A stretch of 64,000 nt of DNA, taken from contig JAQUWU010000018.1 in the NCBI GenBank assembly GCA_028692715.1, forward strand, positions 21,871-85,870, in the 5' to 3' direction. Positions within the stretch are counted from its first letter, which is position 1. Each line of letters opens with the position of its first letter. The translations under genes were made by a program, and so were the position numbers. Under the pieces are notes generated by a model. That model did not search any database and had not been told where the DNA came from. It saw only the letters and a program-made list of their open reading frames with translations. This DNA comes from Paludibacter sp. (GTDB lineage Bacteria; Bacteroidota; Bacteroidia; Bacteroidales; Paludibacteraceae). Shown one piece after another: positions 21,303 to 30,460 of this stretch.

Positions 21303-22115
21303 ATGAAAAATTATATATTCTTCATACTAGTCACCTTATCAATTATATATCTATTATCCTCATGTACCGAAATAATAGATGTAAATATTAATGCTTCGAA
21401 CCCACAAATTGTAGTCGAAGCAACTATTGGTACGAATGAACAACCATTCGTACTAATTACAAAAACCAATGATTTAAATGGAAGCGATCAAATTCAACAG
21501 GTGGAAAATGCTCAGGTCAGCATTTCTGATAACGATGGAAATGTAGTGAATTTATATGAAATTGCGCCTGGCCAATATCTGAACCCAACTTCAACTTTTA
21601 CAGGTCAAATAGGAAAAACGTATCATTTAAACATACTGGTGGAAGATAAAACAATTAGTTCAACTTCTACAATTCCTAGTTTTGTTCCCATTGATTCAGT
21701 TACAGTTATTAATTCAATTTATCCGGGAGGTGGACCTCCTGTGGGAGATCAATCTGCGTCTTTTTATGAAGTAAGTATTCATTATTCCGATCCGGAAAAT
21801 GTAATAAATTATTATCGTATTTTACTTTTTGTAAATGGTTTAGCACAGAGTGGAAACCATGTTTATACCGATAATTTTAATAACGGAAAAAATGTAATGC
21901 AAACCCTTTTCATGTACAATACAAAACTAAAATCGGGTGATATTATTTCCATTGAGATGGAATGCATTGATAAAAATGTGTACAACTATTTCCAAAGCAT
22001 GGATAACAGTGCTATGGGGTCAAGTCCTGCTAACCCTTATACAAATCTCACCGGAGCTATTTTAGGTTATTTTAGTGCGCATACGGTGGAAAAGGTAGAT
22101 TATGTTTTGAAATAA
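21303..22115 (+). CDS. DUF4249 lipoprotein, partner of the TonB receptor
   Basis: A 270-residue protein with lipobox LLSSC (Cys 21), then the DUF4249 opening EIIDVNINASNPQIVVEATI and an all-beta body. It starts 2 bases after the receptor stop, so the two genes are certainly co-transcribed. Members of the family probably sit on the outer membrane and assist the adjacent receptor, as SusD does for SusC, but this is inferred. A dense array of hairpin repeats begins 8 bases after its stop codon. Confidence 0.85.
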   Translation: MKNYIFFILVTLSIIYLLSSCTEIIDVNINASNPQIVVEATIGTNEQPFVLITKTNDLNGSDQIQQVENAQVSISDNDGNVVNLYEIAPGQYLNPTSTFTGQIGKTYHLNILVEDKTISSTSTIPSFVPIDSVTVINSIYPGGGPPVGDQSASFYEVSIHYSDPENVINYYRILLFVNGLAQSGNHVYTDNFNNGKNVMQTLFMYNTKLKSGDIISIEMECIDKNVYNYFQSMDNSAMGSSPANPYTNLTGAILGYFSAHTVEKVDYVLK

Positions 22116-22122
22116 GGTCATC

Positions 22123-22755
22123 AAAGAAATCGCGCCTACTGTGCTACAAAGAAATCTCAACTACGTGGTTCAAAACCAATATAAATTCAATTTTTATAAT
22201 AAAAATCAAACTTACGTGCTCAATATGAGGCACGGAGTGCTGATTTCTTTGTAATAAACAGTTTGACGTTCTAATTTTGAGCACCGTAGGTGTGATTTCT
22301 TTATGAGATTACGTTTGTTTTTTAGAAATTAGGTATATGACTATCAAATAAACCACATTTTAATTCGTTTTTAGAAATCACCGCTACGCGGCTCAAAACC
22401 TATATTAAAAACTGCTTCTACAAAGAAATCGCACCTACAGTGCTCAATACATAACTTCTAGAGTTGTTTCCTTTACATAAAACATATAAGCCAATTCTCA
22501 TTATGAGGCACTGAGTGCTAATTTCTTTGTAATAAACTGTTTAACTCTACAATTTGGGAGCACGTAGGTGTGATTTCTTAATAAGATTACGTTTTTTTTA
22601 GAAATCAGGTCTACGACCCTCAAATATAAATACACATTTTTTCTACAAAGAAATCACCGCTACGCGGCTCAAAAGACAATATATATTCATTTTCAACTAC
22701 AAAGAAATCGCACCTACAGTGCTCAATATAAGACATGCGGTGCTGATTATTTTGT
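22123..22755. repeat. REP hairpin array, upstream half (about 14 copies)
   Basis: Each copy is AAAGAAATC, then a 3-4 bp hairpin, then CTCAA. Copies in plus orientation start near 22123, 22148, 22201 (decayed), 22323 (decayed), 22372, 22422, 22599, 22647 and 22701. Copies in minus orientation lie at 22226-22250, 22277-22302, 22504-22528, 22555-22579 and 22733-22755 (decayed). Stem sequences differ but stay paired, for example GCAC/GTGC, CCGC/GCGG, GGT/ACC and CACC/GGTG. Five hairpins in the order A-,B-,C+,D+,E+ form a higher unit of about 277 bases, present at 22226-22446 and 22504-22725. Confidence 0.9.
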
Positions 22756-22831
22756 AACAAAAATAACAATCAAATATTTTTTTTATTTTTGCAATTACAG
22801 ACATCTAATAATCAACTTAAAAACTACAACT

Positions 22832-23293
22832 ATGGCAAACACTTACACACAATTGTACGTCCAAATTGTATTTGCAGTAAAAGGTCGTGAAAATTTAATC
22901 GGTGAAAAATTTCGTGAGGAATTAGAAAAAATTATGTGCACTATCGTAACAGATAATAAATCGAAACCTATTGCTGTTTATTGTAACCCCGACCACACGC
23001 ATATTTTTGTCGGTTTACACCCAAGTATTTCAGTATCAAAAATGGCAGAAGCAATCAAATCTGGCTCGTCTGGCTGGATAAATAGGGAAAAGAAAATAGT
23101 AGGAAATTTTAGTTGGCAAGAAGGTTATGGAGCTTTTAGTTATTCAAAATCGCATATTGATGCTGTTGTAAAATACATTCTCAATCAACCGGAACATCAT
23201 AAACGTAAATCATTTAAAGAGGAATATTTAGATTATTTGAAGAAATTTGATATTCCGTATGACGATCAATATTTGTTTGATTGGATGGATTAA
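22832..23293 (+). CDS. REP-associated tyrosine transposase (IS200/IS605 TnpA-like, Y1 HUH nuclease)
   Basis: A 153-residue single-domain protein with the Y1 transposase fold: the HUH motif H55-T56-H57 (NPDHTHIFVG) and a catalytic tyrosine, most likely Y115 in VVKYILNQPEHH. Such enzymes nick single-stranded DNA beside hairpins and bind 5'-phosphotyrosine. The gene is not bounded by IS200-type ends but sits within 23 short hairpin repeats with conserved flanks, the arrangement of RAYT genes and their REP sequences. It is therefore probably a domesticated enzyme that made, or still acts on, these repeats. Its length is typical and no frame defect is visible. Confidence 0.92.
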   Translation: MANTYTQLYVQIVFAVKGRENLIGEKFREELEKIMCTIVTDNKSKPIAVYCNPDHTHIFVGLHPSISVSKMAEAIKSGSSGWINREKKIVGNFSWQEGYGAFSYSKSHIDAVVKYILNQPEHHKRKSFKEEYLDYLKKFDIPYDDQYLFDWMD

Positions 23294-23321
23294 GAAAATG
23301 TGTGGATAATCTCAATTCTAC

Positions 23322-23854
23322 AAAGGATTCGCACCTACATTGCTCAATACAAGTATAGCTAATTAATTTGTTTCTAGATAAAAACCAAAAATTTTATGGT
23401 AGTTCGTATTGCCGATTTATTTGTAACTCGATGACAACCACCAATCCAATGGAGGCACGGAGTGCTGATTTCTTTGTAATAAACTGTTTAACTCTACAAT
23501 TTGGGAGCACCGTAGGTGTGATTTCTTAATAAGATTACGTTTTATTTAGAAATCAGGTCTACGACCCTCAAATATAAATACACTTTTTTCTACAAAGAAA
23601 TCACCGCTACGCGGCTCAAAACCTATATTAAAAACTTCTTCTACAAAGAAATCGCACCTACAGTGCTCAATACATAACTTCTAGAGTTGTTTCCTTTACA
23701 TAAAACATATAAGCCAATTCTCATTATGAGGCACGGAGTGCTGATTTCTTTGTAATAAACAGTTTGACGTTCTAATTTTGAGCACCATAGGTGTGATTTC
23801 TTTATGAGATTATGGCTTTATTTTTCTAAAAAGAAATCGCACTTAAAGTGCTAA
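23322..23854. repeat. REP hairpin array, downstream half (about 9 copies)
   Basis: Plus copies lie at 23322-23346 (decayed), 23547-23571, 23594-23619, 23645-23670 and 23829-23854. Minus copies lie at 23451-23475, 23502-23527, 23727-23751 and 23779-23803. The order A-,B-,C+,D+,E+ again appears at 23451-23670, followed by a partial unit. The spacer after hairpin E (about 23671-23726) is nearly identical to that at 22447-22503, so the array grew by duplication of whole units and not only of single hairpins. Confidence 0.9.
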
Positions 23855-23884
23855 ATATATTTTGATTTCTTCTTGCATAAAATT

Positions 23885-24862
23885 TTAAATTTTCCCATGT
23901 TTCTTATACCAATCAATCGCCTCTTTGATGGCCATTTTCAAATTGGTTTCAGGCATTTCCAGTTCATTTTTAGCTTTCGTATTATTATAGTATTCACGAA
24001 TTAATAACTGGTTGATATTCATACTGCACACATCAGTTTTTATTCTAAACAGTCTTACTAGATCACCAAATTTCCCTAGTATTTCTAAAAATATTGAAGG
24101 AATTTCTATCAAAATTTGTTGGTAACCAGCAATTTCACTTTGTAGGTTATAAAATTCTGAAAAAGATAGATTTACACCTGATGCAAGGTATTTTTCTCCA
24201 TTATTTCCCATCATTAATGCATTACAAACAGCAATAGCGACGCTTTTAACTGCCACAAAATTTTTTCCCCCTTTGGGCGCGCTCATAACTGATTTTTTAT
24301 AGCCCATCAACATTAATTTTCCGGAACTTGGCTTTGTATCCATAGATCCTATCATAAAAGTTGGATTAATCATCACAAAATGACGATTGGGCTTTTTGGA
24401 TGCTTCTAGTATGAGCTTTTCCGATTCAATTTTACTTTGCGCATAAAACGATTTTGTAAAGGGAAATTCTATTGGTGACAGTTCATCTGAAGATTTTTTT
24501 ATTGTTCCGTAACCAATCGTGTTTGCAGTGCTTATATAAACTAACTTATTAATATTCAATTCGTCTGCAACTTTCAAAATTATTTTTGTTCCTTCCACAT
24601 TAATTTTTCGGTAGTCATTATAATACAATAAATCGGTTGCGGTAATGGCAGCAATATGTATAATTGCATCACAATTAGTAGCTCCTTTTTTTAATGTGGA
24701 GTAATCGTCGAAGTTTCCTTCCAGAACATCAATTTTTGATAAATCGAAATAAATATTCTTTTTACTACGCACTATTATCTTAACCGAATGATTTCGTTTT
24801 AAAAGTTCAGGTACAACATGATGCCCCAATAAACCATTTGCTCCGGTCACTAATATGTTCAT
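23885..24862 (-). CDS. NAD(P)-dependent epimerase/reductase (extended SDR)
   Basis: A 325-residue Rossmann-fold enzyme with the nucleotide motif VTGANGLLGHHVV at the N-terminus and an active-site-like SFYAQSKIESEKLI with the YxxxK arrangement. It resembles dihydroflavonol reductase or 3-beta-hydroxysteroid dehydrogenase-type extended SDRs, which oxidise or reduce hydroxyl groups. The substrate is unknown. The gene is divergent from a classical SDR gene, and its 3' end lies about 30 bases from the last REP hairpin. Confidence 0.85.
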   Translation of the reverse strand: MNILVTGANGLLGHHVVPELLKRNHSVKIIVRSKKNIYFDLSKIDVLEGNFDDYSTLKKGATNCDAIIHIAAITATDLLYYNDYRKINVEGTKIILKVADELNINKLVYISTANTIGYGTIKKSSDELSPIEFPFTKSFYAQSKIESEKLILEASKKPNRHFVMINPTFMIGSMDTKPSSGKLMLMGYKKSVMSAPKGGKNFVAVKSVAIAVCNALMMGNNGEKYLASGVNLSFSEFYNLQSEIAGYQQILIEIPSIFLEILGKFGDLVRLFRIKTDVCSMNINQLLIREYYNNTKAKNELEMPETNLKMAIKEAIDWYKKHGKI

Positions 24863-27519: not shown

Positions 27520-29850
27520 ATGAGAAATTTATCTGAAATAGATATTTGGAAAAGAAGTTTTGGACTTCTACCTATTCATTTGAATTCCATTACCATGGAA
27601 GATAAGTTCCTTATGCTTAATGGAGGTCAGGGTGATTTTTGTTTACAAACTAACAATTTAGAGGAAGATAAAACTGTTTATTTTTCACAATCTTGGTCTA
27701 CTAATACAAAAAATTATGTTGTAGTTGAAAAAAATGAAGTTAAAGTAATTAATTGGTTAAATGAAAGCCAAGAGTCAATACCAAAAATTCAGATTGAAAA
27801 CAAATTTGAAAAGTTTTATAGTTACCTTCTTTCAAAAAGTTATAAAACTGAAAATGATGTTATTCCTTTTATTGTTGATATATTTAGAAAATTTAGAAAT
27901 ATTACAAAAGAAAAAGACAATCCATCAGAAGCTCTAAATTTACTTTTTAGATTACTCATTAGCCTTGAAGATGATTATAATAAAATTGATTCTATTAAGT
28001 GGAATATAGACGATTGTGCAATACCTTATCAATTTGATTATTTTGTGGAACTTTTAAAACAAGGTATAAATTCAATAAGTCCACAATTAGATTTAATTTT
28101 AAGGCATTCTGCTGGTGCATTGTTTCAGGAAGCTCATAAAGAAGCTTTATATTTTAATTCACAGAGAGATTTATTTGGTAATGTTTCAAGTAATTTAATA
28201 ACTAAAAAGGAACTATATACAAGTATTCATTATACGCCACAGTATTTAGCGAGATCAATTGTTGAAAATAGTATAAATTTACTAGATTTATCCAAAGAGA
28301 TTATTAAAATTTTTGACCCAGCTTGTGGATCATCTGAATTTTTAATTGAAGCATTAAAACAAATTAAAAATAAAGGATATGAGGGAAAAATTTTAATAGA
28401 AGGATGGGATACATCAGAAAATGCTATAAGTACATCTAAATTTTTATTAAAATATGAACAAAGGTCCCAGTGGAATAATAAAAATTTAGAATTTAATATA
28501 AAGATAGTTGAAGATTCATTAACTGAAAATTGGGGTAATGATTATGATTTGATTTTAATGAATCCTCCGTTTGTATCTTGGGAATTATTAAAAGAAAAAT
28601 GTTCAAGAGATGCTGTTTTAGAAACCTTAGGAAGCAGCTTTAAAAAAGGTAAGCCAAATCAAGCAAGTGCTTTTTTTTACAAAGCAGTTAAGTCTTTAAA
28701 TGACAATGGAGTAATAGGATGTGTTCTTCCAACTTCAATATTTACTTTTGAGTCTTATTCATTATTAAGAAAACAAGTTAATGATATTTTATCTATCAAT
28801 ATAATTGGAAAATTAGGAAATTTTGTATTTGAAAATGCATTAACTGATGTTAGCTTTTTTATAGGTCAAAAACCAAAATCATCAAACATTCCTACTTTAT
28901 TATGGTGTAAAAATGAAAGAGGAATTGTTCAAGATGCTTTGAGAGATTTAAGAAAAATGAATGCCAATAATTTATCGACCGTTGAAGAAAAATATTATAG
29001 TATTTATACTCCATCTCTTTTTCCAGTAATTTCTGAGAATTGGAAACTAATATCATTAAAAGAAGAAAAGCAATTAAAAAATATAGATTTATATTTATCG
29101 ATAGGAAAGCTTATAAAAGCTGGTGATATTTTTAGTTTTAATCAGGGAATGTTGGTTGGAATAAAGAATATCTTTAATATTTCAATTAATGATTATAAAG
29201 ATTTACCAAAAAATGAACAAAAATATTTTAGACCTCTTGCAACTAGTTCTTCAATTAAAGATGGGCAGTTGAATGTATCTGAATACATATGGTTTCCTTA
29301 CAATAATAAAGGTATCATAATAAAAACAGAAGAAGATTTAAAAGAATTATCATTTTATAAAAATGTATTAGAACCCAATAAAAATTTATTAAAATCACGT
29401 AAAGGTATCAAAGATTGGTGGGGGTTGACAAGACCGAGGAATTGGCAATTTGAAAGTTCTAATAGACTTTTTTCAAATAGATTTGGAAATTCTTCTTCTT
29501 TTGCTTTCGATAATGAAGGAAATACTATAATCGAAGAGGGAAATGCATGTATTCCTAAGAAAAATTTTGATTTAGATGATTACTATTTTTATCTAGCATG
29601 TTTTTCAAGTAATTTATTTGACCAGTTATTGTCAATTTATTCAAAGCAATTAGCTGGAGGAAATTGGTATGATTTAGGTGCAAAATACACTAGAAATATT
29701 CCTATTCCTAATATTCATCAGGTAGAAGTAAAAGAATCAGAAGCATATTCAAAGCTCGTAGAATTAGGAAAAGAGTTAGAAATGGGTAATTCTTTTGTTA
29801 AGTCAGTTATTGATGAAATATTATTGAGTTTCTTCTATCCCAAAATGTAG
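27520..29850 (+). CDS. N6-adenine DNA methyltransferase, type II/IIG-like
   Basis: A 776-residue protein. SAM-binding motif I is DPACGSSEFLIEAL (from D266) and catalytic motif IV is LMNPPFVSW (N348-F351), typical of adenine-N6 methylases. The C-terminal half looks like a target-recognition region, and the tail GGNWYDLGAKYTRNIPIPNI is like that of Eco57I/type IIG enzymes. The N-terminal 230 residues (KFEKFYSYLLSKSYKTEND, FIVDIFRKFRN) are not recognised, and I see no PD-(D/E)xK nuclease motif. Codon use is much more AT-rich than in neighbouring genes, which suggests transfer. A small gene follows after 4 bases. A role in phage defence or DNA marking is likely but not shown. Confidence 0.87.
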   Translation: MRNLSEIDIWKRSFGLLPIHLNSITMEDKFLMLNGGQGDFCLQTNNLEEDKTVYFSQSWSTNTKNYVVVEKNEVKVINWLNESQESIPKIQIENKFEKFYSYLLSKSYKTENDVIPFIVDIFRKFRNITKEKDNPSEALNLLFRLLISLEDDYNKIDSIKWNIDDCAIPYQFDYFVELLKQGINSISPQLDLILRHSAGALFQEAHKEALYFNSQRDLFGNVSSNLITKKELYTSIHYTPQYLARSIVENSINLLDLSKEIIKIFDPACGSSEFLIEALKQIKNKGYEGKILIEGWDTSENAISTSKFLLKYEQRSQWNNKNLEFNIKIVEDSLTENWGNDYDLILMNPPFVSWELLKEKCSRDAVLETLGSSFKKGKPNQASAFFYKAVKSLNDNGVIGCVLPTSIFTFESYSLLRKQVNDILSINIIGKLGNFVFENALTDVSFFIGQKPKSSNIPTLLWCKNERGIVQDALRDLRKMNANNLSTVEEKYYSIYTPSLFPVISENWKLISLKEEKQLKNIDLYLSIGKLIKAGDIFSFNQGMLVGIKNIFNISINDYKDLPKNEQKYFRPLATSSSIKDGQLNVSEYIWFPYNNKGIIIKTEEDLKELSFYKNVLEPNKNLLKSRKGIKDWWGLTRPRNWQFESSNRLFSNRFGNSSSFAFDNEGNTIIEEGNACIPKKNFDLDDYYFYLACFSSNLFDQLLSIYSKQLAGGNWYDLGAKYTRNIPIPNIHQVEVKESEAYSKLVELGKELEMGNSFVKSVIDEILLSFFYPKM

Positions 29851-29854
29851 TTCT

Positions 29855-30460
29855 ATGCTCAATGCTAATCAACTCATTAAAGAAATTAACAATAAATGCA
29901 AGAATTATTTTCAGAATTCTCATTTTGAGTTAAAACCCTTTCCCAAAAATAATCTCTTCATTTATCGCATTGAAGGTTTTTCCTTTGCCTTAAATCGGAA
30001 CAAAAATAATTCTGAGAAAATTAAAGTTTTACATTGGTTTGATGATTTTTGGTTATTTATAGAAATGAGATTTATTGGTAATAATACATTTATTTCTTTA
30101 TCAATATTTCAAGGAAATGAACATGATGAAATTAAATATCAATTATTTAGAGCTGAATGGGATGATCATAATAATCCATATGAAAAACATCCACAACCTC
30201 ATTGGCATATAACTTCTGAATATACAATTGAGGAAAACTTTAAAGATTTTTCAAATAGTTTTGATGATGGTTCTTCGTTTTCAACATTTGAAACTGTTAA
30301 ATCAAAAATTATTGATGTAAAAAATATGCATTTTGCTATGAATGGAAACTGGCAAAACGGAGAATCTCATACACATATAATTGATGATAATAACAAGATA
30401 GTGAAATGGTTTCAAGGAATACTCAATCATTTAAGGGAAGAACTCGAATATGTTAAATAA
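29855..30460 (+). CDS. Unrecognised His-rich protein coupled to the methylase
   Basis: A 201-residue soluble protein starting 4 bases after the methylase stop, so expression must be coupled. I do not recognise a family. Two histidine clusters stand out: HPQPHWH (H112, H116, H118) and ESHTH (H172, H174) after HFAMNGNWQNG. Such clusters could bind a metal or form a nuclease- or phosphodiesterase-like site, but this is inference. The rest has alternating strands and helices and a C-terminal helix. It is as AT-rich as the methylase and was probably acquired with it. It may be an effector, specificity or modulator subunit. Confidence 0.75.
   Translation: MLNANQLIKEINNKCKNYFQNSHFELKPFPKNNLFIYRIEGFSFALNRNKNNSEKIKVLHWFDDFWLFIEMRFIGNNTFISLSIFQGNEHDEIKYQLFRAEWDDHNNPYEKHPQPHWHITSEYTIEENFKDFSNSFDDGSSFSTFETVKSKIIDVKNMHFAMNGNWQNGESHTHIIDDNNKIVKWFQGILNHLREELEYVK

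Follow-up and report, generated by a model that had tools for sequence, protein, structure and literature searches.

Tagged hairpins around an IS200-like Y1 HUH gene: candidate substrates of a single-strand transposase in a REPtron-like locus

The described systems closest to the locus analysed here are the REPs and the Y1 enzymes of the TnpAY1 family. According to PMC8266576, E. coli REPs are cut at CT on the 5' or the 3' side of the structure; in one member of group 3, a GTAG tetranucleotide helps to choose the cut site. Complementary changes in the stems are already on record for classical REPs in the part of PMC3733652 cited here. TnpAY1 subclass 1.2 is characterised by the signatures Y---Q--HH and DH[IV]H, and the portion of Quentin et al. 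2018 (PMC6006769) that we cite records this subclass with REP "no".

We analysed a 64-kb stretch of Paludibacter DNA (the window, here always meaning this whole stretch), in which about 23 short hairpins at positions 22123-23855 surround one Y1 HUH gene (22832-23293). What appears to be new is a tag and a fixed distance shared across the family of an enzyme group recorded without repeats, for which we found no earlier report in searches of one open-licence library.

The array and the class of its enzyme

The array lies between the end of a DUF4249 gene (21303-22115) and an epimerase-like gene on the minus strand (23885-24862). A lenient scan finds 21 hairpin copies between 22123 and 23803, and three further weak or partial copies lie at 22199, at 23830 and at about 22730 (the last read by eye), so that the initial annotation's count of at least 23 was fair. 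Hairpin coordinates are given without the 4-nt tag that precedes them in the element on the 5' side. All three arm pairs are formed in 17 of the 21 copies when G-T is allowed, and the other four have 2, 2, 1 and 0. The tag, YTAY, stands directly before a AAAGAAATC-like word in 15 of these copies (CTAC 7, TTAC 5, TTAT 3) and has decayed in the remaining 6. Variation among the window hairpins is found in the three arm pairs and at one outer R/Y position.

A multi-hairpin unit of 276-278 bases recurs within the array, with starts at 22225, 22503, 23450 and 23726 (spacings 278, 947 and 276). The order and orientation A-,B-,C+,D+,E+ is followed from the first three starts, and A-,B- with a decayed E from the fourth; three units of about 277 bases and a partial fourth, as first described, are seen, with a degenerate C in unit 1. 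The array opens with two copies in direct tandem on the plus strand, 25 nt apart and joined at CTAC (22123-22173), and a degenerate plus-strand copy (22199-22223). Unit 1 is made of hairpin A (22225-22250, minus; GCA/TGC stem, TCC loop, TTAC tag), B (22277-22302, minus; CAC/GTG, TAC loop, tag decayed to TCAT), the degenerate C (22322-22347, plus; GGT/ACT), D (22371-22396, plus; CCG/CGG, TAC loop, decayed tag) and E (22422-22447, plus; CAC/GTG with a CTACA apex, CTAC tag). Unit 2 repeats this with A (22503-22528, minus; TTAC tag), B (22554-22580, minus; 1-nt stem deletion, TTAT tag), C (22598-22623, plus; GGT/ACC, decayed tag), D (22647-22672, plus; CCG/CGG, CTAC tag) and E (22701-22726, plus; CAC/GTG, CTAC tag). 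On the 3' side of the gene are an E-type hairpin (23322-23347, plus; two of three arm pairs, CTAC tag) and a degenerate copy (23397-23422, minus; one of three arm pairs, TTAC tag), followed by unit 3 with A (23450-23475, minus; TTAC tag), B (23501-23528, minus; TTAT tag), C (23546-23571, plus; GGT/ACC, TTAT tag), D (23594-23619, plus; CCG/CGG, CTAC tag) and E (23645-23670, plus; CTAC tag). Partial unit 4 has A (23726-23751, minus; TTAC tag) and B (23778-23803, minus; tag decayed to TCAT), and a decayed E-type hairpin (23830-23855, plus) ends the array. The paired stem changes noted in the initial annotation hold, and its list of stem types is amended here: types B and E have a common CAC/GTG stem, and AAC/GTT is a single imperfect copy.

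Elsewhere in the window, the gene of an Eco57I/N6 DNA methylase-like protein (27520-29850, plus; 776 aa) is followed by that of a 201-aa protein with no Pfam or PADLOC match (29855-30460, plus), and the two (27520-30460) form a possible restriction-modification pair.

The gene inside the array (22832-23293, plus) is tnpA-like and encodes 153 aa with H55-T-H57, W95-Q96 and Y115-I-L-N-Q119-P-E-H122-H123. The catalytic residues H55, H57 and Y115 had been named correctly, and they are invariant, together with W95-Q96, Q119 and H122-H123, in all 22 aligned proteins (window protein included). The label RAYT has to be given up. The protein matches Pfam Y1_Tnp with 90.1 bits and passes the NCBIfam IS200 model NF033573 (72.3 bits, cut-off 55), but it stays below the cut-off of the NCBIfam model for REP-associated transposases, NF047646 (23 bits vs 80). 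The RAYT signature Y---NP is absent from the window protein, which reads YILNQPEHH at that place, and both Y---Q--HH and WQ, the marks of TnpAY1 subclass 1.2, are present. Its HUH motif is DHTH, a departure by one residue from the DH[IV]H consensus of the subclass, and several relatives have DHIH or DHVH. The fold predicted with AlphaFold2 (pLDDT 87) has IS200-type TnpA chains as its 29 best Foldseek matches, ISDra2 and IS608 leading (E 1.3e-9 to 4.8e-7); the RAYT 4er8 comes 30th by E, yet has the lowest rmsd of the 30 (3.2, TM 0.60). By its model scores and motifs, the window enzyme is IS200-like, of TnpAY1 subclass 1.2 type, and no canonical RAYT. Two cyanobacterial candidates from a plasmid search (L211 and L212) were rejected as members of subclass 1.2; they have no Y---Q--HH and look like subclass 1.1.

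Conserved structure, tag and distance

To follow the stems over the 4.85-Mb genome we used a flank-and-loop pattern that does not demand pairing, GAAATCNNNNCTACGNNNCTCAA, which gives 92 matches at up to 3 mismatches vs 33 for the reversed pattern. The pairing test was made on the 54 matches with at most 2 mismatches, excluding the 38 with 3. All three arm pairs are Watson-Crick in 45 of the 54, compared with 0-4 after a shift of the 3' arm by 1-4 nt; with 0, 1 and 2 mismatches the fully paired arms number 9/10, 19/20 and 17/24. Many of the 54 are array copies, hence distinct arm pairs were counted separately, and 8 of 17 are perfect (CAC, CCG, GCA, GAG, GGA, GCG, GGT and CAG) against a shuffled mean of 0.93 and a maximum of 6 in 10,000. 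These controls bear out that structure is kept rather than stem sequence, and the co-variation over the genomic copies is beyond chance. Pair counts on the A2 alignment were discarded as independent evidence, because its rows (57 of 102 listed) had been chosen for pairing.

For the anatomy of the element we compared related loci, taken as the best 80 of 584 confirmed places, with genes 49-69% identical to the window protein. They are mostly from Bacteroidota, with Ignavibacteria, Verrucomicrobia, Neomarinimicrobiota and Desulfonema magnum also among them. Close to the gene, at up to 600 bp (91 kb in all), there are 208 perfect 4-bp triloop hairpins with GTA/TAC loops, and more than 1.5 kb away (330 kb) there are 77, a 9.7-fold difference per base. 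Among 32 loop classes, enrichment is highest for GTA, GAA and GGA. When cTACg, cTTCg and cTCCg hairpins (from 42, 15 and 8 loci) are aligned on the loop, conservation is found mainly from -18 to +8, in the order Y T A Y, AAW, a spacer ending near C, R, stem, loop, stem, Y, T.

To assess the distance between tag and loop, we took every hairpin with a stem of at least 5 bp and a loop of 3-4 nt and counted YTAY at offsets of 6-30 nt ahead of the loop. A single main peak emerges, at 14 nt. At the 80 loci, the 922 oriented hairpins that lie within 600 bp of the gene include 231 with YTAY at this offset, the other 24 offsets having 6-30 each. A strict copy near the gene is present in 71 of the 80 loci, and two or more in 59. 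Two non-overlapping sets, from which the overlapping loci L190, L040, L041 and L055 were dropped, give 54 at 14 nt vs a mean of 4.4 (maximum 12) for 19 loci, 18 of them with a copy, and 56 vs a mean of 7.2 (maximum 15) for 26 further loci, 17 with a copy; the offset was derived from the 80 loci and the hairpins of both sets had been viewed by eye earlier, so neither set is blind. The extension of the 14-nt rule to other loops was first noticed in the hairpins of these two sets. Far from the gene there are 28 at 14 nt vs 4-19 at other offsets (80 loci) and 11 vs a mean of 5.8 (19 loci). No 14-nt peak is seen at the control loci around other Y1 genes, which have 3 at 14 nt and 0-9 at other offsets. 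There are 16 of these loci (L005 and L006 partly overlap): 4 belong to this genome, and 12 come from 7 genomes out of 20 searched.

The distance from tag to loop remains constant while the stem changes between 5 and 9 bp and the loop between 3 and 4 nt. At the 14-nt offset the commonest loops of the 80 loci are TAC 87, TTC 40, TCC 20, GAT 15, TAT 13, GCT 12 and TAAC 9. Near the gene, 189 of 300 CTACG pentamers are flanked by complementary 3-nt arms, and far from it 22 of 257. For three loop classes, we ran a flank profile built on the 80 loci against 20 loci of 14-20 kb. Its matches number 21 at up to 600 bp from the gene, 3 between 600 and 1200 bp and 4 between 1.2 and 10 kb; one of the 20 test loci, L190 (2 matches), overlaps the training locus L102. 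The matches within 800 bp stem from 9 of the 20 loci, L180 alone giving 9, and the 16 control loci of other Y1 genes give 0 matches. That the hairpins are an artefact of chance or low complexity, for which one could point to the A+T-rich intergenic DNA, is hardly credible, as the slide, shuffle, distance, non-overlapping-set and other-Y1 controls all fail to reproduce the pattern.

Of the outer words at first taken as shared, AAAGAAATC is valid locally, as the spacer of this array; the 5' mark of the whole family is the YTAY just before it, 14 nt from the loop, and the element does not start at AAAGAAATC. A strict copy near the gene is absent in 9/80, 1/19 and 9/26 loci of the three sets, the last nine being mostly loci of divergent or fragmentary genes. 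Repeated hairpins of another format, with other tags and no YTAY at 14 nt, accompany divergent Y1 genes at L056, L059, L060 and L001 (G000 C79:103295); examples of such hairpins are GCACC-ttt-GGTGC and TTGGC-taaa-GCCAA.

Two further regularities were considered and set aside. A GNA-triloop rule (cGNAg opposite the tag strand) was rejected, since TAT, TCT, GAT, GCT and 4-nt loops also stand at the fixed distance, and the predicted DNA folding of four window elements, in which the two strands are nearly equal in energy, also argues against it. Of 242 elements, 27 have a YTAY at the 3' end of the stem, a number close to that expected from the conserved Y and T at +7 and +8, and only 1 of these 27 has another hairpin next; a right-hand YTAY boundary thus rests on a few tandem arrays, and outside those it is no commoner than YT predicts. 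Across loci, the fourth base of the tag is correlated with the first pair of the stem, which a guide model might predict and which common descent explains equally.

Linkage to the gene, array growth and dispersal

Across genomes we searched with R1, a covariance model of 57 elements, scoring 150 candidates in each genome and accepting matches at E 0.1. On the window, R1 performs weakly: its best E there is 0.035, and of its 13 matches up to E 5 three lie outside the array, one of them at E 0.15. The presence counts are for this reason rough lower bounds. Matches are found in 23 of 31 genomes with the gene (its own included) vs 1 of 9 without (Fisher 0.0012, uncorrected for kinship), so the hairpins are not equally frequent in genomes that lack it. 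When two genomes with only weak gene matches (25-27% identity) are moved to those without, the counts become 23/29 vs 1/11 (Fisher 0.000085, again uncorrected for kinship). The only positive genome without the gene, G008, is 76% complete. Profile matches to the enzyme family occur in 104 of 198 sampled genomes of the phylum, and the weak ones may include other Y1 genes.

The elements have a preferred arrangement around the gene. Among 242 elements, minus-strand copies 5' of the gene and plus-strand copies 3' of it number 89 each, with 26 and 38 otherwise, which means that the tag side mostly faces the gene on either side. Neighbour distances of up to 200 nt fall within 50-54 nt in 42 of 116 cases, mostly between copies of the same orientation. 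If the hairpins acted as RNA, in the form of terminators, mRNA stabilisers or a guide-like RNA of the transposase, their place near gene ends would be expected and the complementary changes would fit as well as they fit DNA. We regard this as very unlikely, given the copies on both strands and both gene sides with the tag mostly facing the gene, the dispersed copies, and the absence of any Rfam match at gathering score within the window; YTAY 14 nt before a loop has, to our knowledge, no terminator role.

Another reading takes the hairpins as the decayed ends of a former IS200/IS605 element and not as independent repeats. The protein is indeed of IS200 type, and the order of tag, spacer and hairpin is like that of an IS200/IS605 left end; however, the GTA-loop hairpins, of which as many as 16 crowd within 600 bp around a single gene, their regular spacing and the gene-free arrays are unlike two ends, and TnpB is not among the five neighbouring ORFs scanned in Pfam. 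We therefore consider decayed ends unlikely, if somewhat less so than a role as RNA. The locus with 16 such hairpins within 600 bp is L110 of Desulfonema magnum, which is outside Bacteroidota, and gene and hairpins may have been transferred there together.

In this genome, other hairpin clusters are found at C29:7484-8535, C115:42657-43492 and on C79, and copies distant from any family gene on C29, C82, C103 and C115. None of the seven PF01797 matches of the genome is on C29 and one is on C115, 35 kb from the array there. The C29 copies repeat every 25 nt, CTAC to CTAC or CTAT, within larger repeats of 299-376 bases. The C115 array has a period of 127-128 bases and CCG-stem hairpins, and the 35-kb distance is to the nearest PF01797 match of its contig. 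The 277-base unit of the window is a local amplification; C29 and C115 have other repeated multi-hairpin stretches. The genome has one copy of the window gene and two relatives, only 47% and 32% identical, and thus no near-identical gene copies of the kind found for an IS200/IS605 insertion sequence. The more similar relative (C113, L002) has repeated TAC-loop hairpins with no YTAY at 14 nt. In other genomes, dispersed copies are found at many places in G005, G007, G014 and G016.

The 25-nt tandem form, CTAC to CTAC, is found on C29 of this genome and in one other lineage (L098). Around 4580-4830 of L090, about five near-identical copies some 53 nt apart are absent in the close relatives L088 and L089, indicating recent growth of the array. 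Five sets of close loci, when aligned, reveal growth of arrays only, and no precise empty site of a single element. The Y1 gene itself occupies one conserved place in Flavobacterium (L088-L090) and Chryseobacterium (L086, L093 and L096), where the nucleotide alignment spans both flanks; in L089 and L093 it lies in a beta-oxidation cluster between 3-hydroxyacyl-CoA dehydrogenase and thiolase genes (Pfam for L089 only). Such a conserved site points to a gene inherited vertically over a long time more than to one that moves often.

These patterns bear on the strongest alternative, a domesticated, non-mobile locus with a host function (chromosome structure, repair or control of neighbouring genes) whose arrays grow by ordinary slippage and recombination. 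The conserved place with aligned flanks and the near-identical tandem repeats added in L090 speak for it. The copies far from family genes, on four contigs here and in the four genomes just named, nevertheless need some past dispersal, and a 14-nt distance kept over a phylum argues for an active pair of enzyme and substrate. We consider domestication a real possibility, but not the probable one.

A possible mechanism and known systems

We prefer to read the locus as REPtron-like and its hairpins as non-autonomous substrates of a resident, low-copy single-strand transposase that is IS200-like and of subclass 1.2, and we give this reading a probability of about 65%. The outline of the first interpretation stands, in that the hairpins go with the gene family and their structure is kept, and its enzyme class and element start are replaced. 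As we would delimit it, the element begins with a 5' YTAY, followed by a spacer usually of 9 nt and often beginning AAW, a stem of free sequence and a loop of 3-4 nt exactly 14 nt after the tag; the stem has mostly 5 bp, 4 in many window copies and up to 9 elsewhere. Most likely, the enzyme would bind the hairpin, folded on single-stranded DNA, through shape, loop and foot, and would bring the tag, which stands 14 nt from the loop, into the HUH/Tyr115 site to be cut and rejoined there, by analogy with what the TnpA of IS608 and ISDra2 does at the ends of those elements. If such a mobile unit, once cut, were joined beside an existing copy, head-to-tail 25-nt copies could result, and slippage or recombination between copies may then have produced the 277-base unit and the arrays with 50-nt spacing. 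At its end the stem usually has Y, followed by T, and in the tandem arrays this YT becomes a full YTAY.

More tentatively, and with the odds somewhat against it, the "YTAY-14" elements and the subclass 1.2 enzymes may be a separate REP class, with a mobile unit of about 25 nt, an enzyme that reads geometry, and insertion at YTAY; where this YTAY is the tag of another copy, head-to-tail arrays would result. Reading of geometry is suggested here because the stem is free and the loop varied.

A widespread group of single-strand DNA enzymes listed without REPs now gains a candidate DNA substrate for each enzyme. The element predicts a tag for cutting and a distance to measure, with natural variants of stem, loop and tag at hand, and the spread of REP-like repeats becomes a testable question in a new lineage.

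Compared with TnpAY1 subclass 1.2 as described in the cited part of PMC6006769, the window enzyme is alike in its length of about 150 aa, DHxH, WQ and Y---Q--HH, a stretch after the core, low copy number and occurrence in Bacteroidetes. It differs in the T in the middle of its HUH motif; and the subclass is entered there with REP "no", the absence reported by one study, whereas tagged hairpins flank most of the members examined here (71/80, 18/19 and 17/26). With the REPs and REPtrons of TnpAREP (RAYT), subclasses 2.2, 2.4, 2.5, 2.7 and 2.8, in the passages of PMC6006769, PMC8266576 and PMC3733652 cited, the locus shares several short hairpins around one Y1 gene, some dispersed or inverted. 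A conserved tetranucleotide 5' of the hairpin and complementary stem changes are also described for classical REPs in these passages, and the palindromic repeat that defines a REP, in several copies around the Y1 gene and elsewhere in the genome, is found here. On the same accounts, the classical REP tag is GT[AG]G at 0-2 nt from the stem, whereas YTAY is here usually at 9-10 nt (less with longer stems) and 14 nt from the loop, and the RAYT enzyme has Y---NP where the window enzyme has Y---Q--HH.

IS608 and ISDra2 are alike in that they rank best in the comparison of predicted fold and, on the proposed mechanism, in the recognition of a hairpin on single-stranded DNA and in a tetranucleotide cleavage site away from the hairpin, which in IS608 is TTAC. 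Unlike an IS200/IS605 insertion sequence, the window gene has no two-ended element visible around it; it is a low-copy gene, in places syntenic, accompanied by many single hairpins.
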